From: Marinomonas vulgaris
GTDB taxonomy: Bacteria; Pseudomonadota; Gammaproteobacteria; Pseudomonadales; Marinomonadaceae
Direction of reading: 5' to 3'
Assembly (NCBI RefSeq): GCF_018145875.1
Contig: NZ_JAGSSV010000017.1
Coordinates: 1 to 64,000, forward strand
Length of the DNA: 64,000 bases
The position numbers and the translations under genes are program-made. Below, in pieces: positions 32,866 to 63,334 of the stretch. The notes below the pieces were generated by a model. It was given only the letters and a program-made list of their open reading frames with translations, was not told the DNA's origin and made no database searches. Each line of letters opens with the position of its first letter. Position 1 is the stretch's first letter.

Positions 32866-33495
32866 GTGTTTCGTTTTTTTCTAAACAAAGTGTTTTTTAA
32901 AACAAGCATAGTGCTTGCTAGTGCAGTCTTCGTGGTGGGCTGTGCAAGTACAACGTTTGATACAAGCAATGTGGCATTAAGTTGTGACGATAATTTTACC
33001 CGATGTGCTCAGGTTGTTGAGCCACCATTAACAGCTTCCGATTCGCCATCAAACGTGGTCGATTCAGCAGAACAAGCCTCGATAGATCAATCTGCAAATG
33101 TGGTCACCACGGAGGAGATTGCTGCCTCCACACTTCCTGATGCCACTCCTGTGATCGCTCCAATTGAATTTGGCTTTGATAATGTCCACGCCACTGTTTC
33201 AGATATTCAGCAAGTCGTCACCTTTTTGTTGGCGAACCCAGAAATCACTCTGACTCTTCATGGCTACACAGATCCTATTGGCAGTGAATCCTACAACCGT
33301 GCCTTGTCTTACAATCGAGCAGAGTACGTTCGTCAACGTTTACTGTTATCGGGTGTTCCTGCCGAGCAATTGACTATTCAAGCCCATGGAGAGCAAGACC
33401 TTATTGTGGCGGAAGTTGATCAAGATGATTTATCAAGAGAAGCCCTCATTCGTCTTTACGCCCCTAATCGTCGTGTTGAGCTGTCGTTTGATTAG
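32866..33495 (+). CDS. OmpA-domain outer-membrane lipoprotein
   Basis: 209 residues from a GTG at 32866, supported by GAGGGG at 32854-32859. A lipoprotein signal ends at Cys26 (VVGC). A Ser/Thr/Val-rich linker follows, then an OmpA-like peptidoglycan-binding domain (about 100-208) with FGFDNVHATVS, LHGYTDPIGSESYNRALSYNRAEYVRQRL and a final NRRVELSF. It would tether the outer membrane to peptidoglycan. It leads the run of genes that includes a TolC-like protein, adaptors and the giant protein, so it probably braces the export complex or the surface protein. Confidence 0.88.
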   Translation: MFRFFLNKVFFKTSIVLASAVFVVGCASTTFDTSNVALSCDDNFTRCAQVVEPPLTASDSPSNVVDSAEQASIDQSANVVTTEEIAASTLPDATPVIAPIEFGFDNVHATVSDIQQVVTFLLANPEITLTLHGYTDPIGSESYNRALSYNRAEYVRQRLLLSGVPAEQLTIQAHGEQDLIVAEVDQDDLSREALIRLYAPNRRVELSFD

Positions 33496-33567
33496 GCTAT
33501 TGCCCAATAAACGCGACACAACCACTTCTCATTTTTATAATTTTTCGTTGTTTCATAAGGAGATATC

Positions 33568-35139
33568 ATGGCTGCCCTTCCTACTTTTGGTAAAACACTT
33601 CTCGCTGTATTGGTTGCGGCGACGGTCGCAGGTTGTTCTGTTACCCCAAACCGTTTAACCGATGGCGATGTAATGACAAGTGTCAATGAAAACACAGCCA
33701 TGCTGGAAAAGGATCTTGCGCCTATTACAGGTCCAATTGACCTAAATGAAGCCTTTGCGCGAACCATCAAATACAACCGAGATGCACGACTCAAAGCCTT
33801 TGAAGCAGTAGTATCTCAGGGACAACTGGCCGTCGATCGATTCGATATGCTGCCAGAGCTTGCGGCTCAAGCAGGCTATAATCGTCGAAACAACTACGCC
33901 GCTTCGGCTTCGGTGACTTTCGTTGGTGACGAACCTTCTAGTTTGGGCAGTAACCCTACTTATTCCGTTTCCTCCGACAAAACCACGGTCAGTGCCAGTA
34001 TAGGTGCAACGTGGGACGTGTTGGATTTTGGATTGTCTTACTATCGTGCCAAACAGCAAGCTGATCGCTTTTTGATTTCGAAAGAGCGTGAACGCAAAGT
34101 GGTTCACAGCATCATGGAGCAATCTCGTCGCGCGTACTACCGTGCGGTGTCGGCAGAACGTCTGTTAACCAAGATTAATCCACTGATTGCCAAAGCACGC
34201 GGTGCACTGATTGATTCAGCAAAAATAGAACAGCTGAGAAGTCAGTCGCCTATGGAAGCCTTAACTTATCAACGTGCCTTGTTAGAAACCCTTCGTACTC
34301 TGCAAGATATCCGTAAAGACTTGGTGCCAGCGAAATCTGAATTGGCGATTTTAATGGGCCTAAACCCGGCAACGGAATTTGAACTCGCCGACGTTAACAA
34401 CCCAAGTTTCACCACGCCAACTCTGTCATTGAAAATGGCGGATATGGAGCGCACCGCATTAGTGTTACGTCCAGAATTGAGAGAAGCCCAATATCAAGAA
34501 CGCATCACCCAAGAAGAAGTGCATTCTGCCTTCTTGTCTTTGTTCCCAAGCTTAAGCCTTAGCGCGGGTCTTAATTATAACGATTCCGACTACTTACGTT
34601 ACAACGACTGGACATCAACAGGGGTTGGCATTAACTGGAACCTAATGAATGTGTTCCGCTATGGCAGCATTGATAAATTGAACAATTTAAAAGTGGCGGC
34701 CAGTAAGCAAAAAGCGCTTGCCATGTCCATGTCGGTCATTTCGCAAGTCCATATTGCCAATTTGCAATTGAGCGAAGCCAACGATACTTACGCGCTGGCG
34801 GATCAATACTACGACGTGGCTCAGCGTATTAAAGGGCAAGTTGATTCAAGCCGTGCAGCACAGCAAACAGGCGAATTAGCCGTTATCCGCGAAGATCTTA
34901 ACGCTTTGTTGGCAGAATTACGCCGTGATGTGGCCTACGCAGATTTGCAGAATAACTTCGGTAAAGTGCTGGTTTCCATGGGGTTAGATCCATTGCCAGA
35001 GGGTTTCGGTGGGATGAATTTAGACCAATTGTCCAATGCCTTTGACACCATGTTTGCTCGCTGGGAACAGGGCGACATTGCCTATGTGTCTGAAGACGAG
35101 ATGCAGGCAGCGTTAGCGGCTCACACCACAGAAAAATAG
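33568..35139 (+). CDS. TolC-family outer-membrane efflux lipoprotein
   Basis: 523 residues. A lipoprotein signal with Cys23 (TVAGC) is followed by two OEP repeats with long amphipathic helices, for example LNEAFARTIKYNRDARLKAFEAV near the start and AANLQLSEANDTYALADQYYDVAQRIKGQ later. AAGGAG precedes the ATG. TolC-like proteins form the outer-membrane and periplasmic tunnel of type 1 secretion and efflux machines. It sits four bases from the adaptor gene and directly before the giant gene, so export of the giant protein is the likely job. It differs clearly from the second TolC-like protein (CusC) at 56231. Confidence 0.9.
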   Translation: MAALPTFGKTLLAVLVAATVAGCSVTPNRLTDGDVMTSVNENTAMLEKDLAPITGPIDLNEAFARTIKYNRDARLKAFEAVVSQGQLAVDRFDMLPELAAQAGYNRRNNYAASASVTFVGDEPSSLGSNPTYSVSSDKTTVSASIGATWDVLDFGLSYYRAKQQADRFLISKERERKVVHSIMEQSRRAYYRAVSAERLLTKINPLIAKARGALIDSAKIEQLRSQSPMEALTYQRALLETLRTLQDIRKDLVPAKSELAILMGLNPATEFELADVNNPSFTTPTLSLKMADMERTALVLRPELREAQYQERITQEEVHSAFLSLFPSLSLSAGLNYNDSDYLRYNDWTSTGVGINWNLMNVFRYGSIDKLNNLKVAASKQKALAMSMSVISQVHIANLQLSEANDTYALADQYYDVAQRIKGQVDSSRAAQQTGELAVIREDLNALLAELRRDVAYADLQNNFGKVLVSMGLDPLPEGFGGMNLDQLSNAFDTMFARWEQGDIAYVSEDEMQAALAAHTTEK

Positions 35140-35175
35140 GGTTTGATGGCTAAGGTGACGATTAGGATAAAGAAT

Positions 35176-35919
35176 ATGACGGCGGAAAAAGTGAAAACCA
35201 AAGCCTTGTTGATTTGTTTATTCGCGAGTCTCTTCTCATTGCCTGTTGTGGCACAAGAGACGGTGAAAGCGAGGGGCTTGTTGGTTGCAACCAACAAAGC
35301 CACCTTATCTAGCGAACTGGCCGCCCGTGTCATTGCATTACCCAAAAAGATGGGTGATGGATTTAAGCAAGGCGATACGCTTATCCAACTTGACTGCCGA
35401 TTGTTTGCGGCCCAGTTGCAAAAAGTGAACGCAGAAGTCGCGGTTGCAACGGCAAAGTTAGACAGTACGCGCCAGCTTAGCCAGTTAAATTCCATCGGCA
35501 CACTAGAAGTCGTTATCGCAGAGTCTGAGCTACAAAAGGCGCAAGCGGAACAAAGCATGGCGCAATTAAATGTTGATCGATGTGACATCAAGGCACCTTT
35601 TGATGGCTATGTTGAACAGCTTGATATTCAGCGTTTTGAAGTGGTGCAACAGCAACAGGCGTTGATGAACATCGTCAGCCGTGCCTCACTAGAAGCTGAC
35701 ATCATTGTACCCGCCCACTGGATGACTTGGTTGCAACTCAATAGCGCTATTGGCTTGCGAGTAGAAGAAACGCAACAAAGCCTGCGAGCGGTGGTGAGTC
35801 ACATTGGACCGAGTGTCGACCCGACCAGCCAAACGTTACAGCTGCGTGCGACCATCTCCAGTATACCCGCTAAGGTATTACCCGGTATGAGTGTCGTCGC
35901 CGAATTTACATCACAGTAA
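35176..35919 (+). CDS. Small HlyD/RND-type periplasmic adaptor
   Basis: 248 residues from the ATG at 35176, chosen because AGGA lies 8 bp upstream and the resulting N-terminus (MTAEKVKTKALLICLFASLFSLPVVAQ) is a good signal peptide; an ATG at 35146 is also in frame. The barrel-sandwich (lipoyl-like) halves are visible as GLLVATNKATLSSELAARVIALP and KAPFDGYVEQLDIQRFEVVQ, separated by a short coiled hairpin (about 80-135), then a beta-barrel. It is shorter than usual adaptors (350-400) and lacks the C-terminal membrane-proximal domain. Confidence 0.83.
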   Translation: MTAEKVKTKALLICLFASLFSLPVVAQETVKARGLLVATNKATLSSELAARVIALPKKMGDGFKQGDTLIQLDCRLFAAQLQKVNAEVAVATAKLDSTRQLSQLNSIGTLEVVIAESELQKAQAEQSMAQLNVDRCDIKAPFDGYVEQLDIQRFEVVQQQQALMNIVSRASLEADIIVPAHWMTWLQLNSAIGLRVEETQQSLRAVVSHIGPSVDPTSQTLQLRATISSIPAKVLPGMSVVAEFTSQ

Positions 35920-35995
35920 AACGCACTTTTGCTCTTATTGAACAAGGGCAAAACAGCAAACGAATTCCATTATTAGCCCTAAACAGGTGGCCATT

Positions 35996-38900
35996 ATGAA
36001 AAAGCACACAACCAATAACAAAATGAAGAAATCCGCTCGCAAACCTCTTATTACCGCATTAGAGCCACGCTTGTTATTGGATGGTGCTGCTGTAGCCACC
36101 GCCATGGACGTGCTGACCGATTCTCAGTTGTATGATGTTACTCAAGGGGAAGTGAACCAACAAGACAGTGACGCAACCATAGTGATTGCCCCGACGGAAG
36201 TGCGTGGCGTTGACTCTGCCCAAAACAACGGTAAAAAAGAAGTAGTTTTCATTGAAGATAATGTCGACGATTACCAAACCCTGATCGACGGCATTGGTGC
36301 GGGTGTAGAAATTGTCTTATTGGATTCCTCGCAAGATGGCTTGGCTCAAATGGCCTTGTGGGCCGAGTCAAACAGCGATTACGACGCCATTCATATCCTG
36401 TCCCACGGATCGGAAGGGGCAGTGGATTTAGGTGCCTTCAACCTTGATTCCACCAGCGTAACAACCCGAACTGACGACCTAACAACCCTTGGTGCCGCAC
36501 TTAACCAAGAGGGCGACCTACTGCTTTATGGTTGTGAGGTGGCCAGCGGTAAAGGGCAAGACTTCATCACCGCCCTAGCCCAAGTCACCCAAGCGGATGT
36601 AGCGGCTTCAGACGATCTGACTGGTTCGGCTGAACTTGGGGGAGATTGGGAGTTAGAGAACACCAGTGGCTCAATTGAAACAGTACTTTCGTTATCTGAA
36701 AATGTTTTGAATCAGTATCGTTTTACGTTTGCAGATGAAACATTTGACTTCGAATCTGGTGTCACTGGGCTCAACACACAGACTGTCACAGCCGTCGGAA
36801 TGAATGCGACATTTACTATTGTCGGAGAGCGAGATACGATTATTGATGATGATCATTTGGATTCACAGGGTTTAGATCCTATTAATGGTAGCACATCATT
36901 AGTTACTGGTGGTCCAAATTATGCCGAAACGAAATATACTTTTACTATTGACTCGGGAAAAACCTTTGATCTCTCAAGTATTTCCCTTCACAACTGGGAT
37001 AACACTGAAACATTTATATTTGAGTCTTCTAAAGGATCGGCATCATTTGAAGTTGAATATAACAATTCAAATAAAGTTATTGATGTTGCATCTCATGCAA
37101 ACGCTGCTAATTTCCAGGGTATTAGCTCGTTTACGATAACTGACGTAGATAATGGTTATCGGATGTACCTTCTAATGGATGACTTAGTAGTAACCAATAT
37201 CACTTCCGTCTCTGCAAATAACGCTCCCACCATCTCCGGTACACCTACAGACATTACGGTAACCGAAGACGCGACTTCCAATATCGATCTCTCTGTAGTG
37301 ACTGTTGCTGACACTGACGGCGATGACTTAACCGTTACACTCACAGCGTCTTCAGGCACTTTAGCAGCTGCAGCAGGCAGTGGTAGCGTTACTGTTGTGG
37401 ATGTGGGAAGCGGTGTTTTGACACTGTCTGGATCTGCGTCTGCGATTAATACCTACCTTGATACCACGACCAACATTCAATACACAGGTGACACTAACGT
37501 AAGTGGTGAAAACGCCGCGACCCTAACGATCAAAGCCAATGACGGCACGGCAGATTCGGCAACCACACTTGTTAATATTGATATCACTGCAGTCAATGAT
37601 ATCCCAGTCATTAATAACCTTAGCGATGGGGCTCCTAGTACAGCAGTTAATGTTTCTGAATACATTGATGTGCAAGGCGCCATTGCTGGTGTAGTTGATG
37701 TGGACGGTGGCGATTTTAATGGCGGCTTCCTGTTGATTGAACAGACTTCAGGTACAACCAATGGCTCTTTTTTAAGCGACCTAGATGATATTACTTTTAA
37801 GTTTGGTACAACTGAATCGAGTGCTGATGGGACGCCTTCTGAGGGCGACACTGTTTGGTATTCTGATGGTTCTGCTTTCGTCGCGATTGGTGCAGTTGAT
37901 AATAGCTTAACGGGTCAGGACGGTGCTGATTTGCGTATTGATTTCAATACAAATGACGCAAAACCAAATAGCGTAGGGGATTTCTTAGCCTATATAAAAT
38001 ATAGTGCTTCTACCGAAGGTGATCGTTCTTTCTCAGTGACTGTAAACGATGGTGATGGCGGTACTTCTGCGGCGGCCACCTTTACGATGCAAATAGTCGA
38101 TAATATCGCGCCAACTGTAGTCAGTATAGATCGCCAAACACCGAGTAATGAAATCACCAATGCTGACAGTTTAGTGTGGCGAGTGACGTTCAGCGAAGCC
38201 GTTACTAATATTGACAGTGCTGACTTTGCGGTATCCGGTACAACTGGTACGGTAACCAATGTGACGTCAGCAGGTGGAAACGCTTATGATGTCACTGTTT
38301 CCGGCGGCGATCTTGTTTCCTACAATGGAAATGTCACTCTTAGCTTTGCTGGCGGTCAAGACATTACCGACAGCGCTAATACTCCTAACGCCCTGACCGC
38401 GACTACGCCTACTAGCACTAATAACACCGACTACACACTAGACAATACGGTATCAGTTCCAACCATGGACTTGTCGAATGGCTCAGATACAGGCTCATCT
38501 AACACAGATAATATTACCCAAGATACAACGCCAACCGTGACAGGAACCGCTGAAGTTGGCGCGACCGTGGCTCTTTATGATACCGACGAAACCACATCAC
38601 TTGGTTCAGCAACGGCGGATGGTTCAGGCAATTGGAGTATCACCATCTCAGCGCTTTCTGCAGGTAGCCATACCTTAACGACAAAAGCCACAGATGCCGC
38701 TGGTAATGTCAGCGTAGCATCCTCTGGATTAACCATTACTGTCGATGACACCGCTCCGACTTTGTCTTCTAGTAACCCTGCTGATGGGGCTGTTTCAGTT
38801 GCTCCAAGTGGCGACATTACTCTGACGTTTAGTGAAGACGTTAATGGTCGCTATGACGACATCACTTTGGTGAATGTTTCCTCAGGTGCGATCGTAGAAA

Positions 38901-47900: not shown

Positions 47901-50900
47901 ATGTTACTACCGCGATCAACGAAGGTGTCACGTTAACCGATAACGGTAGTGTAACCTTCACTGATCTAGATCGAACAGATCGTCCCGTTGCAACACAAGC
48001 GACTAAATCCGTAACTGCCAAAGCGCAAGACGGTACCATCGCCTTGACTCTAACCACGGCACAACAAACCGCGATTGAAAATGCGTTCAGCATCGAAAAC
48101 GTCAGTGGCAATACCAACAACGGTACGGTGAACTGGACGTACAACATCACCGAAGCCAACTTAGACTTTTTGGGTGAAGGCGAAGTCGTTACGGCCGTGT
48201 TTACCATTACCGTGACCGACGATGAAGGCGCGACCGATACACAAGATGTGACCGTTACCATCACCGGCAGCAACGACACCCCTGATATCCAGGTGGTGGA
48301 CGTTACCGGTGAGATAACCGAAGGCAACACCTTGACCGATACGGGCAGCGTGACCTTTACTGATGTGGATCTAACAGATCGCCCAACGGCAACCGAAGCC
48401 ACTCAGTCTGTGACGGCCAAAGCGCAAGACGGTACCACCGCCTTGACTCTAACCACGGCACAACAAACCGCGATTGAAAATGCGTTCAGCATCGAAAACG
48501 TCAGTGGCAACACGAACAACGGTACGGTGAACTGGACGTACGACATCACTGAAGCCGACTTAGACTTCTTGGGTGAAGGCGAAGTCGTTACAGCCGTGTT
48601 CACCATTACCGTGATCGATGATCAAAACGCCACGGCCACTCAAGACGTTACCGTCACCATCACCGGCAGCAATGACACCCCTGATATCCAAGTGGTGGAT
48701 GTCGCTGCAAGCATCACCGAAGGCTCTACGTTAACCGATACGGGCAGTGTGACGTTTACGGATGTCGACCTAACGGATCTCCCAACGGCCACAGAAGCGA
48801 CTAAGTCAGTGACGGCCAAAGCGCAAGACGGTACTACCGGCTTGACGCTGACCAGCACTCAGCAGGCCGCCATTGAAGCGGCGTTCAGCATCGAAAACGT
48901 CAGTGGCAACACGAACAACGGTACGGTGAACTGGACGTACGACATCACTGAAGCCGACTTAGACTTCTTGGGTGAAGGCGAAGTCGTTACGGCCGTGTTC
49001 ACTATTACCGTGACCGATGACGAAGGCGCCAAGGCCAATCAAGATGTGACAGTGACCATCACTGGTGCAAACGATGCGCCGACCATCAAGGCGGGTGATG
49101 TAGTTGGTGAAATAATCGAAGGCGCGACTGAGACTCTGACTGATACGGGCAGTGTGACCTTTACTGATGTGGATCTAACAGATCGCCCAACGGCAACCGA
49201 AGCGACTAAGTCTGTGACCGCCAAGGCGCAAGACGGTACCACCGCTTTGACGCTGACCAGCACTCAGCAGGCCGCCATTGAAGCGGCGTTCAGCATCGAA
49301 AACGTCAGTGGCAACACGAACAACGGTACGGTGAACTGGACGTACAACATCACTGAAGCCGACTTAGACTTCTTGGGTGAAGGCGAAGTCGTTACAGCCG
49401 TGTTCACTATTACTGTGACCGATGACGAAGGCGCCAAGGCCAATCAAGATGTGACGGTGACCATCACTGGTGTAAACGATACGCCGACCATCACGGTGGT
49501 TGACGTTGTCGCAAGCATCACCGAAGGCACTAACCTGACCGATACGGGCAGTGTGACCTTTGCGGATGTGGATCTAACGGATCGCCCAACGGCAACCGAA
49601 GCCACTCAGTCTGTGACGGCCAAAGCGCAAGACGGTACCATCGCCTTGACTTTAACCACGGCACAACAAACCGCGATTGAAAATGCGTTTAGCATCGAAA
49701 ACGTCAGTGACAATACCAACAACGGTACGGTGAACTGGGCGTACAACATCACTGAAGCCGACTTAGACTTCTTGGGTGAAGACGAAGTCGTGACTGCCGT
49801 GTTCACCATTACCGTGACCGACGATGAAGGCGCGACCGATACACAAGATGTGACCGTTACCATCACCGGCAGCAACGACACCCCTGATATCCAGGTGGTG
49901 GACGTTACCGGTGAAATAACCGAAGGCACCATCCTGAAAGATACGGGCAGTGTGACCTTTACTGATGTGGATCTAACAGATCGCCCAACGGCAACCGAAG
50001 CGACTCAGTCTGTCACGGCCAAGGCGCAAGATGGTACCACCGCCTTGACGCTGACCAGCACTCAGCAGGCCGCCATTGAAGCGGCGTTCAGCATCGAAAA
50101 CGTCAGTGGCAACACGAACAACGGTACGGTGAACTGGACGTACGACATCGCGGAAACGGATCTCGACTTCTTAGCGAAAGGCGAAGTGGTGACCGCCGTG
50201 TTCACCATTACCGTGACCGATGATCAAAACACTACGGCCACTCAAGATGTGACGGTGACCATCACAGGTGCAAACGATGCGCCAACAGTGACCAAAGAGT
50301 TGGCGGCCATGGCTGGCACATCGGGTCAGATTTTCACTCCAGTGACTTTGCCGGCAGATCTGTTTGCTGATGTCGACGCAAATGAAGTCAATACGCTTGT
50401 TTGGAGCATTGAAAACTTACCAACAGGGTTGGTTTTTAATCCGGCAAATCGAACACTTTCTGGTACTCCTCAAGGCGGTTTTGAAGGAGAGAATATACTT
50501 GTTGTAGTCGCAACTGATGCCCAAGGAGCTCAGGTAAGAGCTCTGGTTTCTCTGACATTAGACCCAGCTCCTGTGGTGGATTCTGGGAATGTGAGTTTGC
50601 CGCCAACAGAGACCTTACCACCTGCTAACAATCAAGAAGCATCAGTGACTGAGTTTGCAGACAACACAGGCACGCTTCCTCAAGGGACTTTAGACACTTC
50701 TGCTGGAACCAGTGGTTTTGCAGATAATACTGGGTTAGAAGCGAGCGCAGTAGTACCCACGGTACCAGTGAATGGCGTTGTGATTGCTGAGTCACGAGTT
50801 GCTGTTAATGTCGGTACTGATGGACAGGTACAAGTGTCCGATCAAGAGACTGCAGTTAATACGACAGATCTTACTGTCGCGAGCTTCACCTACGAGGCTC

Positions 50901-51271
50901 AAACGGTGCAGATTACTATCGCCGACGCAAGACCAGGTGGTTCATACAGTGCAACTCTGGCTGACGGCACGGCATTGCCGAGTTGGGTAGAAGTGAATGC
51001 GACCACTGGTGAAATCACCATGACACCGCCTGAAGGTCAGGGTGCTCTATCGCTAAAAATCAATGCCGTTGATGCGGATGGTAATATTCGTGTCTTGGAG
51101 TTGGATGTCGATCTTGAAGACACAGTAGAAAGCAGCGATGAAATAGAAGACCCGCTCGCGATGTTAGCGCCACAGGGGGACGGTTATATGCCTCTTGATC
51201 AGCAGTTATCGCTAGCCAGCGAGCAGTTTGACGATTATGGTAGTGATTTGATGAAGTTGTTAGTGTCGTAA
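35996..51271 (+). CDS. Giant DUF4347/VCBS/cadherin-repeat surface or secreted protein
   Basis: About 5,091 residues from the ATG at 35996 (AGGTGG five bases upstream; a GTG at 35987 is in frame). It has no Sec signal. The N-terminus has the LEPR-XLL motif (TALEPRLLLDGAA). A DUF4347 domain spans about 36203-36680, and a second one about 40460-40960. Between and after lie Ig-like repeats (TFSEAVTNVDSADF type, 38100-40380 and 43380-44320), a duplicated FG-GAP-like Asp-rich unit (40975-41600), cadherin-like repeats with DxNDNxP calcium sites (44320-45570), VCBS-type repeats (45580-47880), six 133-residue repeats (47891-50290) and C-terminal Ig-like domains. The last about 40 residues (AMLAPQGDGYMPLDQQL...) resemble an export tail. 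No RTX GGxGxD repeats, protease triad or lectin core is evident. It probably acts as a calcium-dependent adhesin; the function is inferred from architecture. Confidence 0.9.
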   Translation: MKKHTTNNKMKKSARKPLITALEPRLLLDGAAVATAMDVLTDSQLYDVTQGEVNQQDSDATIVIAPTEVRGVDSAQNNGKKEVVFIEDNVDDYQTLIDGIGAGVEIVLLDSSQDGLAQMALWAESNSDYDAIHILSHGSEGAVDLGAFNLDSTSVTTRTDDLTTLGAALNQEGDLLLYGCEVASGKGQDFITALAQVTQADVAASDDLTGSAELGGDWELENTSGSIETVLSLSENVLNQYRFTFADETFDFESGVTGLNTQTVTAVGMNATFTIVGERDTIIDDDHLDSQGLDPINGSTSLVTGGPNYAETKYTFTIDSGKTFDLSSISLHNWDNTETFIFESSKGSASFEVEYNNSNKVIDVASHANAANFQGISSFTITDVDNGYRMYLLMDDLVVTNITSVSANNAPTISGTPTDITVTEDATSNIDLSVVTVADTDGDDLTVTLTASSGTLAAAAGSGSVTVVDVGSGVLTLSGSASAINTYLDTTTNIQYTGDTNVSGENAATLTIKANDGTADSATTLVNIDITAVNDIPVINNLSDGAPSTAVNVSEYIDVQGAIAGVVDVDGGDFNGGFLLIEQTSGTTNGSFLSDLDDITFKFGTTESSADGTPSEGDTVWYSDGSAFVAIGAVDNSLTGQDGADLRIDFNTNDAKPNSVGDFLAYIKYSASTEGDRSFSVTVNDGDGGTSAAATFTMQIVDNIAPTVVSIDRQTPSNEITNADSLVWRVTFSEAVTNIDSADFAVSGTTGTVTNVTSAGGNAYDVTVSGGDLVSYNGNVTLSFAGGQDITDSANTPNALTATTPTSTNNTDYTLDNTVSVPTMDLSNGSDTGSSNTDNITQDTTPTVTGTAEVGATVALYDTDETTSLGSATADGSGNWSITISALSAGSHTLTTKATDAAGNVSVASSGLTITVDDTAPTLSSSNPADGAVSVAPSGDITLTFSEDVNGRYDDITLVNVSSGAIVETYDAYNSGQLTFSGNTLTINPTSDLLEATAYAIQINSGAIQDTAGNSFEGISDNTTLNFTTGVTDTAAPTFLAIQRTSDDVITGDTTSFTLTFNEAVNVTAADFALATTGSVASTIGSITGSGTNTITVNVTGISGIGTLGLNLESGHAVTDLAGNALATAEPADDEVYTVDTVAPTLISINRLTDASTNADSVQFVAVFSENVTGLSADDFELTGTAKSGASISSVFGTANGYIITVNNISGDGSLGVQLKSAATLTDTASNALTTTTASAVTEQYTIDNTAPTATAIITTNTALSTADTVTFDVTFNEAVTNVTADDFEITGDVSGTITGITGSGSSYTVTVASITGDGALGLNFKSGQNITDTASNSFSGSEPSTDESYTIDNTLPTVASISRGMVNQVKAGTATDVVFTVVFNETVSGVASSDFAVTGNATNTGVSSVSSSDGKVFKVTVADVNGTIGQTLGLSFTGSADDAVSQASTATFTAGDTYTIAGTLLNEGALTQTQLDAIEDLNRAGTLLEQSVADATQVVIVDSRVPGLVELTKESNPNADIWLLDGSRSAVEQITEILANYSDLEALHILSHGGVGEVYLGAETLSESSITQNSGIYAAWGNALSDNGDILLYGCNVAQGDIGLDFINQLAQVTGADIAASDDLTGSAVLGGDWELEVKTDVIESSALSGGNYSGVLGNQFTLTQEPLALAGAVTGDSSWLYTVAIDYDSDGDQDFLAYDGSAYSFFDNDGSGSFTKVTPNTSFPLQNSEAFLVADFDNDGDEDVIVADGTGVPSYYQNNGDATFTLSQDPLASAGAVTGDSSWLYTVAIDYDSDGDQDFLAYDGSAYSFFDNDGSGSFTKVTPNTSFPLQNSEAFLVADFDNDGDEDVIVADGTGIPSYYRQDGTVAGTNNKPPVISATTPLDNGTGVETTANLVLTFDETIASSGTGTVNIYKSSDDSLVESIVGNDGRVTGYGTSTITINPTAELDPSTSYYIQIEKGALFDLDGMTFMGITDKTTLGFTTGAGVDSTAPTFDTTPATSNISTTTFDLTTDINEAGNLYYVVVADGAQAPTAAQVKAGVSYGDNNGRGAAVITSGSATVSSGAFSNTFNVTGLTASTSYDIYVVAEDDEGNPNLQSAVTKVDATTIAPANQAPTISGAAASQAVNDAATMSPFGAITLADADNDNVSVTVALDTAAKGAFTSASLTDSGFTDAGNGSYTLSSTTLASAQAALRALVFDPADNRVAVGSTETTTFTITVNDGTVNGTNNTTTVISTSINDTPTDMALSDASYKHSEGASNVVVGSFSATDADTGESLTYSLVAGTDDTNNGLFNINGADLRITDRADVSAGTYSVRVQVSDGDATYEEVFSITVTDDQAPSISTIAPIDNATGVSVADSIKVTLDEDLQLGDSGTITLYDITGNGANSVSIDVTSHASQLSIADNVLTINPTSNLIATNQYAVQFTAGVLKDDTGNAITAVTDITSYNFTTGTVDTTKPTVAIVDVADPTQPNAGTITINFSEQVANVDISDFTLTKDGTSVDISGLSVTGTGSTYTIDLSSVTAAGGTYMLTLATSNITDTSGNALSAGDSESFVIDTTASTGVAIVRAGAQTINGSAATFTAVFSDSVSGVDASDFTLTGTATGGTISNVTQVSDSVYTVSVTGLTSDGTLGVDLNSTGTGITDTAGNPISGGKIGQQIIRDTTGPSVNAINRDGAALTTADTATFTVSFNEAVTGVDASDFSLTAGATGNISSVIGSGSTYQVTVNSITGDGDLRLDLSTSDTGITDTAGNAISAGFTPGDTLTIDNTAAVVTGSQSVNLDEGMASGTIIGQVKATDSNGISEFSIQSGNDAGYFAIDNDGVLTLTSAGAAAIDYETITSYTLNIVATDIIGQASSAVGVTIAVQDINDNAPTIGSSSTASVAENTASTAVVYDANATDADSTSAHNTLTYSLKAIGDHSAFTIDPSTGEVKLNAVADYETKASYGFTVIATDGMRSTEKAVTLSINDVNDNTPVITSGTTGSVNENAATSTVIYTASATDADGTATNNTLRYSLTGDDAALLDIDDTTGVVTLKASADYETKDSYSFNVVATDNGAGNYNSGSLSSSEAVTISVNDLNDNTPMITSGATGSVNENVATSTVIYTASATDADGTATNNTLRYSLTGTDAGLLNINATTGEVTLKASADYETQSSYSFNVVATDNGAGNYNSGSLSSSQATTVSVIDINEAPVANSDSSSALEAGGVGNNIAGSNATGNVLTNDTDIDASDSKTVTAVSVSGSNGTVGQALTGDYGSLTLKADGSYTYIVDNSNTTVQSLQAGSNITDSFTYTLSDNGSLVDTATLVITINGANDNPTQTVDDASDISESVDAIAQDLNSSGSVSFADVDASDLIDVGFVSDSNIEWSAGTLDSALASKLVAGFSVTGTDESAPGTVDWFYSVDDVALDFLAVDETITFSYVVTVTDSQNATATDTVKFTIIGSNDAPTVSATLAAGITESEDASEQVLKDSGTVSFTDIDDTDLIDVTFDSDNNIVWSGGAIDSDLATQLLEGFAVSGTSQSAPGSVDWLYDVSGVDLDFLAEGESITFSYTVYADDNSGDFALESSDASNTDSATVGTGFESGLDGWSVNNDTNTVVVSGEQTVGQWGITPNVGSMLSINSAGGSSWDISATALSLSDESKTYISNTYNNGITQANYAYKDVELGAGETLSMAWNYVATDYAPYNDSSIATFVNLDNSDSVGKIDGLTGEVSLLGATVEGTANYTTGNYGGTGWQQVSFTATDAGTYRVGYLVFDLQDTANSPYLFIDDLAGETTKNGEPYDAIDRDENAPTPISGDGSTDSGSNLPLPPSTVVSFTITGSNDAPTVSATAAAGIAESSDASEQVLQDSGTVSFTDLDDTDVVDVSFGSDNNITWSAGTLDSALASQLVTGFSVTGTGVSAPGSVDWSYSVDDADLDFLAVDETITFSYAVTVTDSQNETATDTVSFTITGTNDAPVIQVVDVTTAINEGVTLTDNGSVTFTDLDRTDRPVATQATKSVTAKAQDGTIALTLTTAQQTAIENAFSIENVSGNTNNGTVNWTYNITEANLDFLGEGEVVTAVFTITVTDDEGATDTQDVTVTITGSNDTPDIQVVDVTGEITEGNTLTDTGSVTFTDVDLTDRPTATEATQSVTAKAQDGTTALTLTTAQQTAIENAFSIENVSGNTNNGTVNWTYDITEADLDFLGEGEVVTAVFTITVIDDQNATATQDVTVTITGSNDTPDIQVVDVAASITEGSTLTDTGSVTFTDVDLTDLPTATEATKSVTAKAQDGTTGLTLTSTQQAAIEAAFSIENVSGNTNNGTVNWTYDITEADLDFLGEGEVVTAVFTITVTDDEGAKANQDVTVTITGANDAPTIKAGDVVGEIIEGATETLTDTGSVTFTDVDLTDRPTATEATKSVTAKAQDGTTALTLTSTQQAAIEAAFSIENVSGNTNNGTVNWTYNITEADLDFLGEGEVVTAVFTITVTDDEGAKANQDVTVTITGVNDTPTITVVDVVASITEGTNLTDTGSVTFADVDLTDRPTATEATQSVTAKAQDGTIALTLTTAQQTAIENAFSIENVSDNTNNGTVNWAYNITEADLDFLGEDEVVTAVFTITVTDDEGATDTQDVTVTITGSNDTPDIQVVDVTGEITEGTILKDTGSVTFTDVDLTDRPTATEATQSVTAKAQDGTTALTLTSTQQAAIEAAFSIENVSGNTNNGTVNWTYDIAETDLDFLAKGEVVTAVFTITVTDDQNTTATQDVTVTITGANDAPTVTKELAAMAGTSGQIFTPVTLPADLFADVDANEVNTLVWSIENLPTGLVFNPANRTLSGTPQGGFEGENILVVVATDAQGAQVRALVSLTLDPAPVVDSGNVSLPPTETLPPANNQEASVTEFADNTGTLPQGTLDTSAGTSGFADNTGLEASAVVPTVPVNGVVIAESRVAVNVGTDGQVQVSDQETAVNTTDLTVASFTYEAQTVQITIADARPGGSYSATLADGTALPSWVEVNATTGEITMTPPEGQGALSLKINAVDADGNIRVLELDVDLEDTVESSDEIEDPLAMLAPQGDGYMPLDQQLSLASEQFDDYGSDLMKLLVS
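41009..41562 (+). repeat. Tandem duplication inside the giant gene, 312-bp period with 242 identical bases
   Basis: 41009-41250 and 41321-41562 read identically by eye, including all third codon positions. The unit encodes an Asp-rich FG-GAP/VCBS-like repeat (DYDSDGDQDFLAYDG and DFDNDGDEDVIVADGTG), candidate calcium-binding loops. Perfect nucleotide identity indicates recent duplication or gene conversion. Confidence 0.9.
44320..45570 (+). repeat. Cadherin-like repeats in the giant gene, about 109-residue period
   Basis: Successive units start with D-x-N-D-N-x-P (at about 44600, 44918 and 45245) and contain ATDADGTATNNTLRYSLTG and ADYETKxSYxFNVVATDNG. The last two units (44921 and 45248, 327 bp apart) are the most alike. 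The DxNDN and DAD motifs are calcium ligands in cadherin folds. Confidence 0.85.
47891..50290 (+). repeat. Six near-identical 399-bp VCBS-type repeats in the giant gene
   Basis: Units begin at 47891, 48290, 48689, 49088, 49493 and 49892. Five intervals are 399 bp (133 codons) and the fourth unit is 405 bp. Each has TDTGSVTFTDVDLTDRP, SVTAKAQDGT, AFSIENVSGNTNNGTVNW, ADLDFLGEGEVVTAVFTITV and ends TVTITGxNDxP. The units differ by a few residues and exchange variants (TTAQQTAIEN versus STQQAAIEA), a sign of recombination among them. Confidence 0.93.
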
Positions 51272-51274
51272 TCT

Positions 51275-52612
51275 ATGTCTGAACAAGCTGTTGCACAGCT
51301 GCTCAAAATTGAGCAGCAAGTCCGTTGTTGTGAAAATGCAACGGACTTGGGTTTTATTATGGTAAACATGACAAGAAGCTTGGTTGAATACGACCAAGCG
51401 GCTTATTTGGTTGGCGATGAGTTATCACGCCTCAAGGTATCAGCAATCAGTGATATTTCTTTGGTGGATCGTGCCACGCCTTTTAGTGCTTGGCTTGAAA
51501 AAGTGTCGTCGACAATCGATGGTACGGCGTTAAGTACAAAAGCGCATCCCATTGACCCAACTCAATGGCCAGCAGAGCTGTCTCGAGAACTTAAAGAGTT
51601 CTCACCGCCTTTTATGCTGTGGTTGCCTTTATTGATTCCTTCTAAACCCAATCAACGTGTTGGGGTGATTTTATTGTCTAAGGCTCAGCCTTGGACCGAC
51701 AAAGAAATAGGGTTGTTACAACATTTGGCGTCCAGTTATGCTCATGCCTTGCAACTGTTTACAAAGCGCTCTGGTGTTCGCGCATGGCTTAGTCATTTGG
51801 TGTCGAGAAAAGTGCAATGGGGCGTATTATCACTGATTTTATTGCTGGGATTTGTACCTGTTCGATTAACCGTATTAGCGCCAGCTGAGATCATCCCTAA
51901 AGACGCTGTATTAGTAACATCCGCCATTGCTGGGGCTGTAAGTGATGTGCTGATTAAGCCCGGTGAGCAAGTGCAGGTTAATCAGCCCTTAGTAAGAATG
52001 GACAGAACTGAGTTTCAAGGTTCATACGATGTTGCTCAAAGAGAGTTGGAAAGAACAAGGGCTGAATTAAGAACCGCTGAGCAAGCGGGTTATGTCGATC
52101 GCAAAAGAAAAGCCGAATTGGCTGAACTGGAATCGCAGGTCGAGTTAAAAACCATCGAACGTGATTATCTACAAGTCAAATTGTCTCAAACCGAGATTGT
52201 CGCTAAAAAATCCGGTGTGGTTGTACTCGATGACCCAGAGCAGTGGAAAGGTCGACCTGTTGTTGTGGGTGAGCGAATATTGTCGATTGCTGATCCTGCC
52301 AATGTGCAATTGGAAATTATGTTGCCCGTGGCGGATGCCATTTCTTTGGCGTCTGGTAATAAGGTAACTTTTTATCTGGATATTGATCCGTTAAATCCCC
52401 TGTCATTTCGTGTGGATCACTCTTCTTTTGAAGCCAGTGTCACGCCTGATCAGGTGGTTGCTTATCGAATTGTGTCTGATATTGAAGAAGGTACTCCACC
52501 ACCACGAATTGGGCTACGTGGAACCGCCAAGCTTTATGGTGAAGAAGTGTCTTTGGCTTACTATTTATTACGCCGTCCGATTACTTTTGTTCGTCAGCGA
52601 TTGGGACTGTAA
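51275..52612 (+). CDS. GAF-domain/HlyD-family fusion adaptor
   Basis: 445 residues. The first about 165 form a cytoplasmic GAF-like domain (KIEQQVRCCENATDLGFIMVNMT..., VGVILLSKAQPWTDKEIGLLQHLASSYAHAL). One membrane helix follows (about 184-202), then a HlyD-type periplasmic part: lipoyl half VTSAIAGAVSDVLIKPGEQVQVNQPLVRMD, a short coiled coil (about 245-305), the second half AKKSGVVVLDDPEQWKGRPVVVGERIL and a beta-barrel. The coupling of a GAF sensor to an export adaptor is unusual. It starts three bases after the giant gene, so it is the most direct partner for its export. Confidence 0.85.
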   Translation: MSEQAVAQLLKIEQQVRCCENATDLGFIMVNMTRSLVEYDQAAYLVGDELSRLKVSAISDISLVDRATPFSAWLEKVSSTIDGTALSTKAHPIDPTQWPAELSRELKEFSPPFMLWLPLLIPSKPNQRVGVILLSKAQPWTDKEIGLLQHLASSYAHALQLFTKRSGVRAWLSHLVSRKVQWGVLSLILLLGFVPVRLTVLAPAEIIPKDAVLVTSAIAGAVSDVLIKPGEQVQVNQPLVRMDRTEFQGSYDVAQRELERTRAELRTAEQAGYVDRKRKAELAELESQVELKTIERDYLQVKLSQTEIVAKKSGVVVLDDPEQWKGRPVVVGERILSIADPANVQLEIMLPVADAISLASGNKVTFYLDIDPLNPLSFRVDHSSFEASVTPDQVVAYRIVSDIEEGTPPPRIGLRGTAKLYGEEVSLAYYLLRRPITFVRQRLGL

Positions 52613-52614
52613 AT

Positions 52615-54744
52615 ATGACCTCTTTGGGCGACGAAACGTTACTGCCTAAGTTACGTCAAAATTTATCTTTGCTATTGGCTTCCCCTGACGAAGATGGTGA
52701 GCCCCGTTGGCAACTGTTTGATCCTGTTACCAACACATTTTTTTACCTATCTCGCAGTGCCTTTTATTTGTTTCGTGAGTGGAGACACAAGGACCAGCCA
52801 GACGCCTTACTGTCTCGGGTGCAAAGCCGTGGTGTGGATGTCGATCAAACCGAACTGGAATATTTTTTACGATTTTTAGAGCTGAATCATCTGTTAGAAG
52901 TACAAACAGACAAGGATGTTAACCGTTTGGGGCAAGAAGCCAGCAAGAGAAAAAAGCATGCTTTGATGTGGCTTCTGCACAATTACCTCTTTATTAAAAT
53001 CCCTCTTATTCGTCCAGATTTATTATTAAATCGTTTCTATCCCATTATAAAAATGCTCTTTAGTTGGCGACTGGATAGGGTAGCCCTGGTGATCGGTGCT
53101 GTGGGATTGGTCATGGTGTTAAGGCAGTGGGATACCTTCACACACACATTTCAAGACTTATTCAGTTTGTCTTCGATTGGTTACTATATTGTGGCTTTAG
53201 TCTTTGTGAAAACAGCACATGAATTGGGTCATGCTTTTGTTGCTAAGCGCTATGGTTGTCGAGTCAGTTCAATGGGATTGGCCTTTTTATTGATGACGCC
53301 TATTTTGTATACGGACACTACAGACGCTTGGCGACTACGGTCGCGGTTTCAAAGGCTGCGTATTGTACTGGCTGGCGTTAAAGTGGAAATTTATATCGCT
53401 TGTATGGCCACTTTTTTATGGAGTGTTGTGCCAGATGGCGGCTTTAGAAGTGTGTTGTTTTTTATTGCCACCACCAGTTGGATTTCATCGTTGTTGATCA
53501 ATGTAAGCCCTTTTATGCGCTTTGATGGATACTATGCCTTATCGGATTTTCTGGGAATGGAAAACCTTCAACCGCGCTCATTTTTGGTAGGAAAATGGTT
53601 TTTACGTGAGCGACTGTTTGGTTTCGATTTTTTGCCTCCTGAACCCTTGAATCGTAAGAAGTGTCTGCTCATGGTCGCTTATGCGTGGAGCACTTGGGTC
53701 TATCGGTTCTTTTTGTTTTTAGGTATTGCCGCCTTAGTGTATTACTTTGCCTTTAAGCTGCTGGGAATTGTGCTTTTCTTAGTTGAAATTATTTGGTTTG
53801 TTTTGTTGCCTATCACCAAAGAAGTGAAGGTTTGGTTCAGTTTGAGAGATAAAATGTCGATAAATCGAGTCAGTGTTACTAGCTTATCCATAATATGCTT
53901 GGCTATTGTCGCATTGGTTGTGCCATGGAAAAATCATATTAGCGCTCCTGCCGTTGCGACTTTTGAGCGTTATCAGACCTTATACCCGAGTGAATCGAGC
54001 CGTGTTATCGCTTGGGAAGTGAACGCGAATAAGAAAGTGACACAAGGCCAATTATTGGCCTTATTGGAATCCCCTGACATTGAGCAAGAGATCTCTCTCA
54101 CTCAAGCGACGCTTAACTCTCTAGAGACTCAATGGCAGCGTGCTAGCTCAGGCGCCATGGATAAAATGACGCAATTGACGCTGCAAACGCAGCTTTCACG
54201 GGAACAGTCGAGGTTACAATCTTTATTGAATCGCCGCGAACGTTTAGTAGTGACAGCACCTTACGATGGCTATATTGGTGAATGGCTGCCCTTATCGCAA
54301 GGCGACTATGTCAATGCGAAATCGCCTTTGGCAACCCTATACGATGAGCAAAGTGTGGTGGTGAAAGCGTACGTCAGTGGGAGTGTTTTACCTTTGTTAA
54401 AAGAGGGGCAGGAGGCAAGCTTTATTAGCAACGAAGGGGAAAAGCTGCCAACGACATTAACCGTTGTGAGTGTATTGCCTACCGCTATCAAACGCTTACC
54501 TTACCAAGCCCTAGGCTCGACTTATGGTGGGCCAATAGCCACTCAGACTCAAGAGGAAGCATTAATTCCTGAAGACGCGACCTATGAAGTTCAACTTGCT
54601 CTTTTATCGAATGTATCTGAAGAGAAACTGGCCTTGTTACGACAGCAATTTGGTCGCGTGGACTTAGCTGTGGAGCCACAAAGCTTTCTTGCTCAGGGCT
54701 TGCGTCGTTTGTATGGTGTCTTTATTAGAGAATCGGGCTTTTAA
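52615..54744 (+). CDS. M50 (site-2-type) metalloprotease fused to a HlyD-like periplasmic domain
   Basis: 709 residues. The N-terminal about 95 resemble a PqqD-like substrate-binding domain (WQLFDPVTNTFFYLSRSAFYLF). A multi-helix membrane region holds the M50 zinc site, HELGH at 202-206 with the third ligand Asp304 in FMRFDGYYALSDF. After the last helix (about 420-440) comes a HlyD-type section with lipoyl-like halves (YPSESSRVIAWEVNANKKVTQGQLLALLESPD and VTAPYDGYIGEWLPLSQGDYVN) and a coiled hairpin between them. All catalytic residues are present, so intramembrane or juxtamembrane cleavage of a substrate is plausible. It starts 3 bp after the GAF-HlyD gene. Confidence 0.87.
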   Translation: MTSLGDETLLPKLRQNLSLLLASPDEDGEPRWQLFDPVTNTFFYLSRSAFYLFREWRHKDQPDALLSRVQSRGVDVDQTELEYFLRFLELNHLLEVQTDKDVNRLGQEASKRKKHALMWLLHNYLFIKIPLIRPDLLLNRFYPIIKMLFSWRLDRVALVIGAVGLVMVLRQWDTFTHTFQDLFSLSSIGYYIVALVFVKTAHELGHAFVAKRYGCRVSSMGLAFLLMTPILYTDTTDAWRLRSRFQRLRIVLAGVKVEIYIACMATFLWSVVPDGGFRSVLFFIATTSWISSLLINVSPFMRFDGYYALSDFLGMENLQPRSFLVGKWFLRERLFGFDFLPPEPLNRKKCLLMVAYAWSTWVYRFFLFLGIAALVYYFAFKLLGIVLFLVEIIWFVLLPITKEVKVWFSLRDKMSINRVSVTSLSIICLAIVALVVPWKNHISAPAVATFERYQTLYPSESSRVIAWEVNANKKVTQGQLLALLESPDIEQEISLTQATLNSLETQWQRASSGAMDKMTQLTLQTQLSREQSRLQSLLNRRERLVVTAPYDGYIGEWLPLSQGDYVNAKSPLATLYDEQSVVVKAYVSGSVLPLLKEGQEASFISNEGEKLPTTLTVVSVLPTAIKRLPYQALGSTYGGPIATQTQEEALIPEDATYEVQLALLSNVSEEKLALLRQQFGRVDLAVEPQSFLAQGLRRLYGVFIRESGF

Positions 54745-54755
54745 TAGAAAATTTT

Positions 54756-55574
54756 ATGTCATCAAATAGAACTACACCTGTTCAGATCACATGGACTCCT
54801 CAACAAGTTGATACTGTAATCGATACATTGGCACATTTACGATTACAGGCAGATATCGATTTGCTACCGAAATACCCATATTTTGGTACCAAACCTTACC
54901 CATTAGGCCGTTGTAAAGAAATCCGTGATGCGGTGTTTGGTTTGTTGCAGATACAATTAAAAAAACCAGACTCAGAGGGGCTGATGCTATTGCACGATGC
55001 TCTGATAAAAGGCGCCTCGTTAACAAAAGCATGGGGATCGTTAAGAGACCTTTATTTTCAAAATGCTTTAATACTCGGAAATTGGTATTTAGATGTGTCG
55101 AACGATACTGTGAATCCTAATAAGCCAAGAGTGGAGGTGCTTCCCGTAGAGCAATCTGGTTTCAATAGTATCCGAGATTTTGAACACTTCGCTTACATTG
55201 CAAAGTCTTACTGGGGAGTAACCATTTATCGCAATACTGTTTGCCCAGCCCTAGCGCCGTTTTTACCTTTTTTGTATGTAAAAAAAGATGGTACCAGCTG
55301 GATGGGTGAAGCAAGTGACGATATGCTTGCGGTGGCAATGAATAGTGAATTCACTGCTTCCGAGCGTATTTTGACTTCCTTACCAACACCACCAAAGCAA
55401 ATAGAATTAGCTTGGGTAAAAGCCCTTTCTCGTCTTGAACATCACTCCCTTTTGCATGCGAAAGGCGATCCCACTGCCTATTGCGATATCTACCGTGGAA
55501 AACACTATTATAAGGATTCCGCGTTTCGTGACGCGCTTATCATGGCATTTTTGGCTCTGCCTAAAAGCGTTTGA
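54756..55574 (+). CDS. Protein of unknown function, last gene of the giant-protein locus
   Basis: 272 residues without signal peptide or membrane helix. Notable segments are PKYPYFGTKPYPLGRCKEIRDAVFGLL, a run rich in aromatic residues (AKSYWGVTIYRNTVCPALAPFLPF) and a C-terminal HHSLLHAKGDPTAYCDIYRGKHYYKDSAFRDALIMAFL. I recognise no family. It follows the M50-HlyD gene by 11 bp, so it belongs to the operon and may be a cytoplasmic chaperone, regulator or modifying enzyme for the giant protein. No function can be assigned. Confidence 0.75.
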   Translation: MSSNRTTPVQITWTPQQVDTVIDTLAHLRLQADIDLLPKYPYFGTKPYPLGRCKEIRDAVFGLLQIQLKKPDSEGLMLLHDALIKGASLTKAWGSLRDLYFQNALILGNWYLDVSNDTVNPNKPRVEVLPVEQSGFNSIRDFEHFAYIAKSYWGVTIYRNTVCPALAPFLPFLYVKKDGTSWMGEASDDMLAVAMNSEFTASERILTSLPTPPKQIELAWVKALSRLEHHSLLHAKGDPTAYCDIYRGKHYYKDSAFRDALIMAFLALPKSV

Positions 55575-55653: not shown

Positions 55654-55728
55654 GAGATTTGGCATAAAAATTCATTGTATTTAACAATAAATTTTAATAC
55701 CTTATATTGATAGATAAAGGTGATTTTG

Positions 55729-56160
55729 ATGCCACAAAGCTTTTTAAACAACATAAGTACATCTTCAAGAGGATACAGTTACCTGTGTCTTCTGTTTTTT
55801 GTGCTGTCGTTGTTTTCAATGGCTATGACCTCCAGTAACATGATTTCATCGGCTTCAAACATGATATTAATGGATATGCACGATATGGCAACGGAACCAC
55901 ATTCCGAGTCAAATTTATCTGATCATGACATGTCCTCTAGCGAAAAATCTTCGTGTATGTCAAATGGGTGCGCCGGTATGGCGGCCGATCATAACCATAA
56001 AAAATGCATAGACAATCATTGTAGTAGCTTTTCAGGTTTACTGGTCAGCTATCATTCTGATTCCGACAATGTTTCTTCTGTTCACACGACTCTGTTGTTT
56101 GAATTCTACGTTTCTACCCACCCAAATACGCCTTATTCCCCTCCTATAGTCATTTCTTAA
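55729..56160 (+). CDS. Small Met/His/Cys-rich protein of the copper cluster
   Basis: 143 residues from the ATG at 55729, chosen over a GTG three codons upstream because AAAGG at 55716-55720 is correctly spaced. One hydrophobic segment (about 18-36) may be a signal or anchor. The following part is rich in metal-binding residues: MDMHDMATEPH, SDHDMSS, CMSNGCAGMAADHNHKKCIDNHC. It ends STHPNTPYSPPI. It resembles the small metal-binding proteins that often precede cus genes, but I cannot name the family with confidence. A periplasmic copper-binding role is inferred. Confidence 0.7.
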   Translation: MPQSFLNNISTSSRGYSYLCLLFFVLSLFSMAMTSSNMISSASNMILMDMHDMATEPHSESNLSDHDMSSSEKSSCMSNGCAGMAADHNHKKCIDNHCSSFSGLLVSYHSDSDNVSSVHTTLLFEFYVSTHPNTPYSPPIVIS

Positions 56161-56230
56161 ATTCACGTTATTACTCATCGCTTCTTTACGCGCTGAGGTT
56201 TTATGAATCTAATAATGAGTATTCAAGCCA

Positions 56231-59169: not shown

Positions 59170-59178
59170 GGGGATATC

Positions 59179-62100: not shown

Positions 62101-62298
62101 CGAGTTCGTCCTGTGATGATGACGGCGGTATCCATCATTATCGGCTTGCTGCCAATTTTATATGGTACTGGAACGGGATCGGAGGTGATGAGTCGAATCG
62201 CTGCACCTATGGTTGGCGGTATGGTAAGCGCTGTTGTGCTGACACTATTAGTTTTACCTGCGGTGTACTTTATGTGGAAAAAATCTTCATTGAAATGA
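59179..62298 (+). CDS. cusA: CusA-like heavy-metal RND pump, Cu(I)/Ag(I) type
   Basis: 1,039 residues, full length. HME-RND features are [21 protein letters not shown] at the N-terminus, the [37 protein letters not shown] segment, [20 protein letters not shown] in helix 4 with the proton-relay Asp, and [15 protein letters not shown] in helix 10. The periplasmic [10 protein letters not shown]-like and [23 protein letters not shown] segments fit monovalent-copper/silver pumps rather than divalent cation CzcA types. It moves metal from the periplasm or cytoplasm to the outside through CusB and CusC. Confidence 0.95.
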
Positions 62299-62349
62299 GC
62301 GTTTGTTTCAATTGATGTAAAACGCGATTTTTCAGAGTCGCACAACATG

Positions 62350-62379: not shown

Positions 62380-62428
62380 TGCAAACAAATATTAAACTCA
62401 AAGCCATTAAACTTTAAAGGATCATAGT

Positions 62429-63330: not shown

Positions 63331-63334
63331 TCAA

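Follow-up and report, generated by a model that had tools for sequence, protein, structure and literature searches.

The window analysed here is a 64,000-nucleotide stretch of the Marinomonas vulgaris genome (assembly GCF_018145875.1, contig NZ_JAGSSV010000017.1; contig C8 of genome G000, 3.45 Mb), which at positions 32866..55574 carries a locus of seven genes built around a giant gene whose product has 5,094 residues. Sequence comparison gives good support for a distinct export system that is marked by a leader and has no linked ATP-binding cassette (ABC) exporter, and the giant is probably exported by this gene set. On balance, the locus appears to belong to a widespread family of exporters, divided into two clades, that span the envelope and serve giants with an LE(P)R-xLL leader; export would be guided by the leader, depend on TolC, be driven by a SecA-type motor and include processing by an M50 protease. 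The seven open reading frames (ORFs) all lie on the plus strand with short intergenic gaps, at the coordinates given by the original prediction, which had been made from the letters of the window. Its description of their products as an OmpA-family lipoprotein, a TolC-like lipoprotein, a small HlyD adaptor, the giant, GAF-HlyD, M50-HlyD and a 272-residue protein was borne out by the ORFs and by profile scans.

The giant (35987..51271; ORF and domain profiles), the presumed exported substrate, probably starts at the ATG at 35996, since its homologues begin with MKK; from this start its N-terminus reads MKKHTTNNKMKKSARKPLITALEPRLLLDGAAV. LEPR stands at residue 25, and the segment LEPRLLLDGAA (residues 25–35; 36059..36091) is the presumed export and processing signal. 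The NCBIfam model LEPR-8K gives 16.5 bits on the giant, slightly below its cut-off of 17. The N-terminus has no hydrophobic core: its best 19-residue hydropathy is 1.15, against 1.8–2.1 in the two lipoproteins and the small adaptor. Two DUF4347 domains are present, at residues about 86–245 (36242..36721; PF14252, E about 8e-56 to 1e-54) and 1502–1651 (40490..40939; PF14252, E about 2e-50 to 5e-49), along with an extended series of repeats of the Ig-like, FG-GAP, cadherin and VCBS types. No GGxGxD repeat occurs in the giant; the last residues are conserved in the nine Marinomonas giants compared, and a short signal at the C-terminus that needs no RTX is possible. Profiles, hydropathy and this repeat count thus agree with the earlier picture of a giant with LEPR-XLL and DUF4347 domains, and with neither a Sec signal nor RTX repeats.

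Fold comparison and matches in the PDB assign DUF4347 a caspase-like (clan CD) fold with a dyad of His140 and Cys183, invariant in 29 sequences. Exactly two cysteines occur in the giant, 183 and 1599, and these are the predicted nucleophiles of the two domains, Cys1599 being that of the second. DUF4347 thus resembles other clan CD peptidases (CHAT, C11, legumain, caspase and Tce1 of Pseudomonas aeruginosa) in fold and dyad; unlike them, it occurs here twice inside a giant, as a putative peptidase. In two published reports, Tce1 (PA0256) is described as a DUF4347 protein (PMC8262886) and as a putative cysteine protease (PMC13323088).

Both a TolC-type channel and an HlyD-type adaptor are present in the locus, according to profile scans and Marinomonas homologues. 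The TolC-family outer-membrane lipoprotein (33568..35139; OEP, E = 1.6e-24; lipobox VAGC by eye) is 72–90% identical across five Marinomonas loci. The small HlyD/RND-MFP adaptor (35143..35919; HlyD_3, 8e-17; RND_mfp, 2.4e-30, above the cut-off) has a signal-like N-terminus, with its sole hydropathy peak at residues 19–37 and no further membrane helix. Beyond the giant, GAF-HlyD (51275..52612; HlyD_3, E about 2e-12 (2.4e-12)) consists of a GAF-like N-terminus, one membrane helix at residues 180–198 and an adaptor C-terminus. Its GAF match is weak (E = 0.006, below the cut-off); the domain exceeds the cut-off in two relatives from clade B, the second of the clades described below (best 3.4e-9).

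M50-HlyD (52615..54744; HlyD_3, 1.7e-11) comprises a putative PqqD-like N-terminus, an M50 intramembrane metalloprotease and an adaptor C-terminus. It carries the HExxH motif and distal aspartate of peptidase family M50 (Pfam Peptidase_M50, 4e-10), with a zinc site formed by HELGH at residues 202–206 and Asp304. H202, E203, H206 and D304 are invariant in 35 of 35 proteins, which fits a protease role. The nearest named families to the M50 domain are proteases of ribosomally synthesised and post-translationally modified peptides (RiPPs), namely the daptide and YydH/LiaK groups, and the daptide metalloprotease model matches at 6e-46, under its curated cut-off. The PqqD profile matches 9 of 25 M50-HlyD homologues, at best with 6e-8. 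RiPP leader processing, with PqqD or RiPP recognition elements and an M50 protease of the daptide or YydH/LiaK type, resembles the present system in pairing a candidate PqqD-like domain with an M50 metalloprotease that presumably acts on an N-terminal leader; unlike in RiPP systems, the M50 domain here is fused to an HlyD adaptor, the substrate is a giant and the score stays below the daptide cut-off. The original prediction had also cast the M50 and GAF-HlyD proteins as suppliers of energy coupling, gating or cleavage. A supply of energy by them is not supported: profile scans detected no ATPase domain in either protein, the M50 site is protease-like, and the sister clade often has a SecA-type ATPase.

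Five other Marinomonas genomes that have the complete locus on one contig share the order TolC, HlyD, giant, GAF-HlyD, M50-HlyD and 272-residue protein: G012, G026, G032, G022, where the frame of the giant is broken, and G028, with an extra small ORF before the giant. The 3′ part is kept in four more, whose contigs end inside the giant; the gene set is therefore not a chance arrangement. The frame change in G022 (L034) falls early in the coding sequence. M50-HlyD was found at 1e-30 in 23 of 48 Marinomonas genomes, 15 of which, that of the window included, have a copy at least 59% identical. In the class sample of 369 genomes, with up to three candidates per genome scored, 57 carry it at E 1e-20, and among named genomes it was found in at least 568 stretches. 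Among the best 80 of these at least 568 named loci, many of which are cut by contig ends, GAF-HlyD is present in 70, the small HlyD in 51, TolC in 45, DUF4347 in 30 and the LEPR leader in 28. The records of these 80 are named as marine, soil and plant-associated bacteria, the carriers including Colwellia, Amphritea, Pelagibacteraceae, Hyphomicrobium, Rhizobium, Nitrospira, Aliarcobacter, Halomonas, Pseudomonas, Methylomonas, Azospira and Desulfopila. A tree of 35 M50 proteins separates clade A (n = 21, window included) from clade B (n = 14) with 100/100 support. Comparison shows a core of a TolC-type channel, a small HlyD adaptor, GAF-HlyD and PqqD-M50-HlyD, of which the last two are, as judged from sequence, the constant part. 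Constant co-occurrence had been named as a check on the prediction; it holds for GAF-HlyD with M50-HlyD and fails for the 272-residue protein, which in the sampled genomes was found in Marinomonas only, also where M50-HlyD is not found at 1e-30.

Records of Pelagibacteraceae (SAR11; L181–L184, L188, L190 and L236) hold clade A genes, several of them adjoining large ORFs, and these loci may bear on the giant genes of SAR11 bacteria. GAF-HlyD and M50-HlyD are also carried by Polynucleobacter (L216). A report on a freshwater bacterium describes a giant gene region with genes of up to 42 kb (PMC5644125).

The giant and the exporter genes occur together across the class sample: DUF4347 was found in 48 of the 369 genomes, and 36 of these also have M50-HlyD, where 7.4 are expected (hypergeometric p 6e-25). 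The leader follows the same pattern. Of the 32 DUF4347 ORFs from M50-positive genomes, 28 have a LEPR-like motif, [LMVIQ]E.R.[LMVIF][LMFYI][DS], among their first 150 residues; in M50-negative genomes only 2 of 9 such ORFs have it (Fisher p 4e-4), and of unrelated ORFs 1 of 178. This count covers DUF4347 ORFs with an available N-terminus; left out are the motif-bearing giant of the window and L048, which has no motif and belongs to G003, a genome not in the class sample. G260 (LEPRILLA) is scored as a miss, and G377 contributes three ORFs. Clade A leaders have the form LE(P/Q/S)R-hhh-D-(G/A)-A, and clade B leaders are mostly LE(P)R-hhh-S. In most of the DUF4347 ORFs without LEPR, the N-terminus is, by eye, DUF4347 itself or a hydrophobic stretch. 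Other Marinomonas clusters contain a DUF4347 giant without LEPR (L047 of G029; L025 and L026 of G016); that of G029 adjoins, by Pfam, an aspartyl/asparaginyl hydroxylase, a formyltransferase-like protein and a phage-tail-collar protein. These giants of G029 and G016 possibly follow a different route or modification. The contigs G161:C1 and G333:C56 bear DUF4347 giants with open frames of 8,630 and 10,477 residues, and each also has M50-HlyD.

In the six genes around the giant, profile scans found no ABC, resistance-nodulation-division (RND) or major facilitator superfamily transporter domain, one of which a tripartite efflux pump would have in its operon, and no LapG (C93) or LapD domain. The same question was put to 118 M50-HlyD neighbourhoods: 9 from the genus, 35 from the class sample and 74 of the 80 named loci, with G008 and L177 being one place and others possibly repeating. 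No fused ABC exporter was detected by a motif test within 10 kb of M50-HlyD in any of them. An ABC-type motif pair occurs within this distance in 14 of the 118. In 12 it lies only in ORFs of 238–378 residues, too small for fused exporters, at which the test was aimed; split exporters with a separate small ATPase are possible in these 12. The two larger matches are one ABC-F protein and one regex artefact in a GAF-HlyD. A search for a LapB-type ABC ATPase linked to the locus in relatives likewise found none; the predicted distinct machine with no ABC exporter linked to it is supported. Type 1 secretion systems (T1SS) are defined by an ABC exporter, with fused transmembrane and nucleotide-binding domains, encoded together with its adaptor, and the locus has no such exporter. 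LapA/LapBCE type 1 secretion, with its LapG/LapD control, is alike in its giant, repeat-rich surface protein, HlyD-type adaptors and TolC-type channel; this locus differs in its N-terminal LEPR leader and in the fusion of its adaptors with GAF and PqqD-M50, and it lacks RTX repeats and a linked ABC ATPase.

The absence of a linked ATPase would also be explained if a T1SS were used in trans, that is, if an unlinked Lap- or HlyB-type ABC exported the giant, the local TolC and HlyD served as an auxiliary conduit, and M50-HlyD and GAF-HlyD processed or sensed the giant as LapG and LapD do for LapA. The genome of the window does hold suitable genes. On contig C22 (L027:5578-12396), LapG- (C93), LapD-, LapB- and LapC-type genes stand together, the LapB-type ABC scoring 983 bits with the LssB model, above the cut-off, with an HlyD alongside; since these genes sit on another contig, the window locus is not a decayed Lap system. 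Contig C1 (L028:2-13348) has a second T1SS-type ABC (604 bits, below the cut-off), a TolC, an HlyD and a large repeat protein. In addition, a published report describes a Vibrio giant that combines LEPR-XLL with C-terminal RTX domains (PMC10868602), so at least in that described case the LEPR leader and type 1 signals can share one protein. Both ABC loci have their own HlyD, however, and a complete local set of adaptors and channel would then be redundant; moreover, the giant of the window has no RTX repeats, and its leader is N-terminal and tracks M50-HlyD. No recognisable T1SS ABC was found in 13 of 25 genomes classed as clade A, some of them drafts and two incomplete (67% and 81%), among the matches listed for the LssB and PrtD models (to about 282 bits). 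The best LssB matches of these 13 reach 286–331 bits, a level that MsbA-type proteins also attain, and begin no earlier than position 140 of the model; the PrtD model gives at most 265 bits against a cut-off of 510. G278, with 351 bits for LssB, was counted neither way, and G283, probably of clade A and also without a T1SS ABC, was left out of the 25. As far as these genome scans reach, they make it, indirectly, less likely that an ABC acting in trans explains export in general; within Marinomonas itself it may do so. Overall, export by an unlinked ABC is unlikely.

A different energy source is suggested by clade B. Contig C6 of the same genome (L098:3-12532) holds a paralogous clade B locus with a second M50-HlyD, a TolC and an HlyD; the position of GAF-HlyD is taken by a larger HlyD protein, and the locus also includes part of another giant and a SecA-like protein of 655 residues (SecA_DEAD, 2e-70; SecA_PP_bind; SecA P-loop), in which SecA_SW gave no match at E 0.01. 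The Walker A G-x-G-K, the DEAD-box D-E-x-D and the AGRGTDI motif are invariant across 11 proteins of this kind. Compared with the housekeeping SecA of the same genome, the SecA-like protein stops shortly past the second ATPase domain, and about the last quarter of SecA, presumably the scaffold, the wing and the two-helix finger, has no counterpart. SecA-like proteins were called at 717 bits or more, the next matches listed by E-value being full-length SecAs of 639 bits or less. They occur in 23 of the 369 genomes, all 23 with M50-HlyD (3.6 expected, p 2.5e-21); the two genes are neighbours in 20, about 16 kb apart in 1 and on other contigs in 2. Among the clade B members of the tree, 12 of 14 come from genomes with a SecA-like protein, which adjoins M50-HlyD in 10. 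A SecA-type ATPase is therefore very likely the energy source in much of clade B, and of the new clues to how the system is powered, this link in the sister clade is the strongest.

The accessory Sec system (SecA2) exports serine-rich adhesins in Gram-positive bacteria. Clade B alone resembles it in having a further SecA-type ATPase next to large surface proteins rich in repeats; such a linked ATPase is found at many clade B loci, C6 included, and is absent from the window locus. Unlike accessory Sec, the present systems are Gram-negative, their SecA-like protein is truncated at the C-terminus, and it is linked to HlyD and TolC proteins and an M50 protease.

A SecA-type motor would also be at work if the giant passed through the ordinary SecA–SecYEG route with an atypical signal, M50-HlyD being a signal-processing protease and HlyD and TolC performing only the outer-membrane step from the periplasm; this explanation and the preferred one have the motor in common. 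It fits the SecA content of clade A genomes, which have the housekeeping SecA and no second one unless a clade B locus is present: of 24 such genomes, 20 have one SecA, and a second SecA occurs in G000, G022 and G357. G000 and G022, themselves clade A members, hold the SecA-like gene at a separate clade B locus. The N-terminus of the giant is lysine-rich ahead of LEPR-LLLDGAA, and the signal-like N-terminus of the small adaptor is likewise consistent with Sec. However, the hydrophobic core missing from the giant is, by eye, missing from clade B leaders too, and the absence of the C-terminal part of SecA from the clade B variant suggests a partner other than SecYEG. This ordinary Sec route with an atypical signal is likewise unlikely. 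It is very improbable that the HlyD-type proteins form no conduit and that M50-HlyD and GAF-HlyD make up an envelope stress or RiPP-like processing unit while the giant leaves by some other route: the kinship with RiPP proteases and the sensing suggested by a GAF domain speak for such a unit, which would need neither the TolC and small HlyD genes so often found at the named loci nor the SecA-type motor frequent in clade B.

The preferred reading, a leader-guided and TolC-dependent exporter with a SecA-type motor, can be set out as a series of steps. In the cytosol, the PqqD-like domain of M50-HlyD would bind the leader, a role proposed because PqqD-like domains bind RiPP leaders. A SecA-family motor would then push the unfolded chain through the inner membrane, the dedicated SecA-like protein serving in clade B and probably the housekeeping SecA in clade A, the window included. 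The M50 site may cleave the chain at or near the leader, after which it would leave through the adaptors and TolC, the GAF domain serving in the cytosol as a sensor or gate. Outside the cell, the caspase-like DUF4347 domains may cut the giant or neighbouring proteins.

Several observations weigh against this reading. The PqqD profile gave no match to the N-terminus of the window's own M50-HlyD. The association of leader and protease has exceptions in both directions: G299 and G340 have the motif and no M50 found, and G377 (twice) and G132 have M50 and no motif. The two unlinked T1SS-type ABC loci of the window genome could act in trans, and a recognisable T1SS ABC is present in 11 of the 25 clade A genomes. 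As to the motor, no SecA-type ATPase was found within the window locus by the ORF list and profile scans, and the SecA-like gene adjoins none of the 21 clade A members of the tree, so that housekeeping SecA as the clade A motor, though inferred, stands for the window by analogy with clade B. Since the leader has no hydrophobic core, the use of SecYEG would be unusual. Even in clade B the SecA-like protein is not universal: it is missing in G338 and G404 of the tree, and G107, G244, G260 and G344, assigned to clade B by low identity outside the tree, have one SecA each. G289, of clade A, gave no SecA match at all, perhaps through an assembly gap.

A more far-reaching version can be put forward only tentatively: that the system is a new Gram-negative secretion class, in which an inner-membrane hub of PqqD-M50-HlyD and GAF-HlyD would read LEPR-xLL and itself form the inner-membrane passage, independent of SecYEG and ABC proteins. 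A SecA-family motor, dedicated and truncated in much of clade B and housekeeping in A, would drive transport, coupled to TolC; intramembrane cleavage of the leader by M50 would commit or release the substrate, and the caspase-like domain would mature it outside. All recognised parts belong to known domain families. The inner-membrane transporter that defines known TolC-dependent systems was looked for in the locus and not found, and no description of an exporter for LEPR-xLL giants with M50, HlyD, GAF, TolC, PqqD and SecA-like components was found in searches of the open-licence literature of PubMed Central; pending proof of export, a specialist could also class the system as a type-1-like variant.

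The two remaining genes are probably genus-level accessories. The OmpA-family lipoprotein (32866..33495; OmpA, E = 1e-12; lipobox VVGC by eye) has a homologue at the matching position in three of the five whole Marinomonas relatives (G022, G026 and G028), and on this comparison it is an accessory outside the core. The 272-residue protein (54756..55574; no signal) gave no domain match in a profile scan. Confined to Marinomonas in the sampled genomes, it is placed after DUF4347 giants, its 15 carriers all having DUF4347, and in five genomes it follows such giants where M50-HlyD is not found at 1e-30; it is therefore placed outside the exporter, and may act on the giant, probably before export. 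Its structural model has a predicted local distance difference test score (pLDDT) of 92 with weak structural matches, and a papain/transglutaminase-like fold with an invariant Cys53 is possible. Directly downstream, at 55720-64000, a small Met/His-rich protein and a CusCBA-like RND metal-efflux gene group were recognised by eye; the RND-like gene at 59179-62298 belongs to this separate group. A tyrosine-recombinase-like ORF lies on the minus strand at the end of the window (63335-64000).

Few gene products of Gram-negative bacteria are larger than giant surface proteins. If the proposed reading is true, some of these leave by a TolC-dependent route in which a SecA-type motor and an intramembrane protease that binds the leader replace the ABC pump. 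It would also explain what the LEPR-XLL motif, the DUF4347 domains of these giants and the orphan truncated SecA are for.

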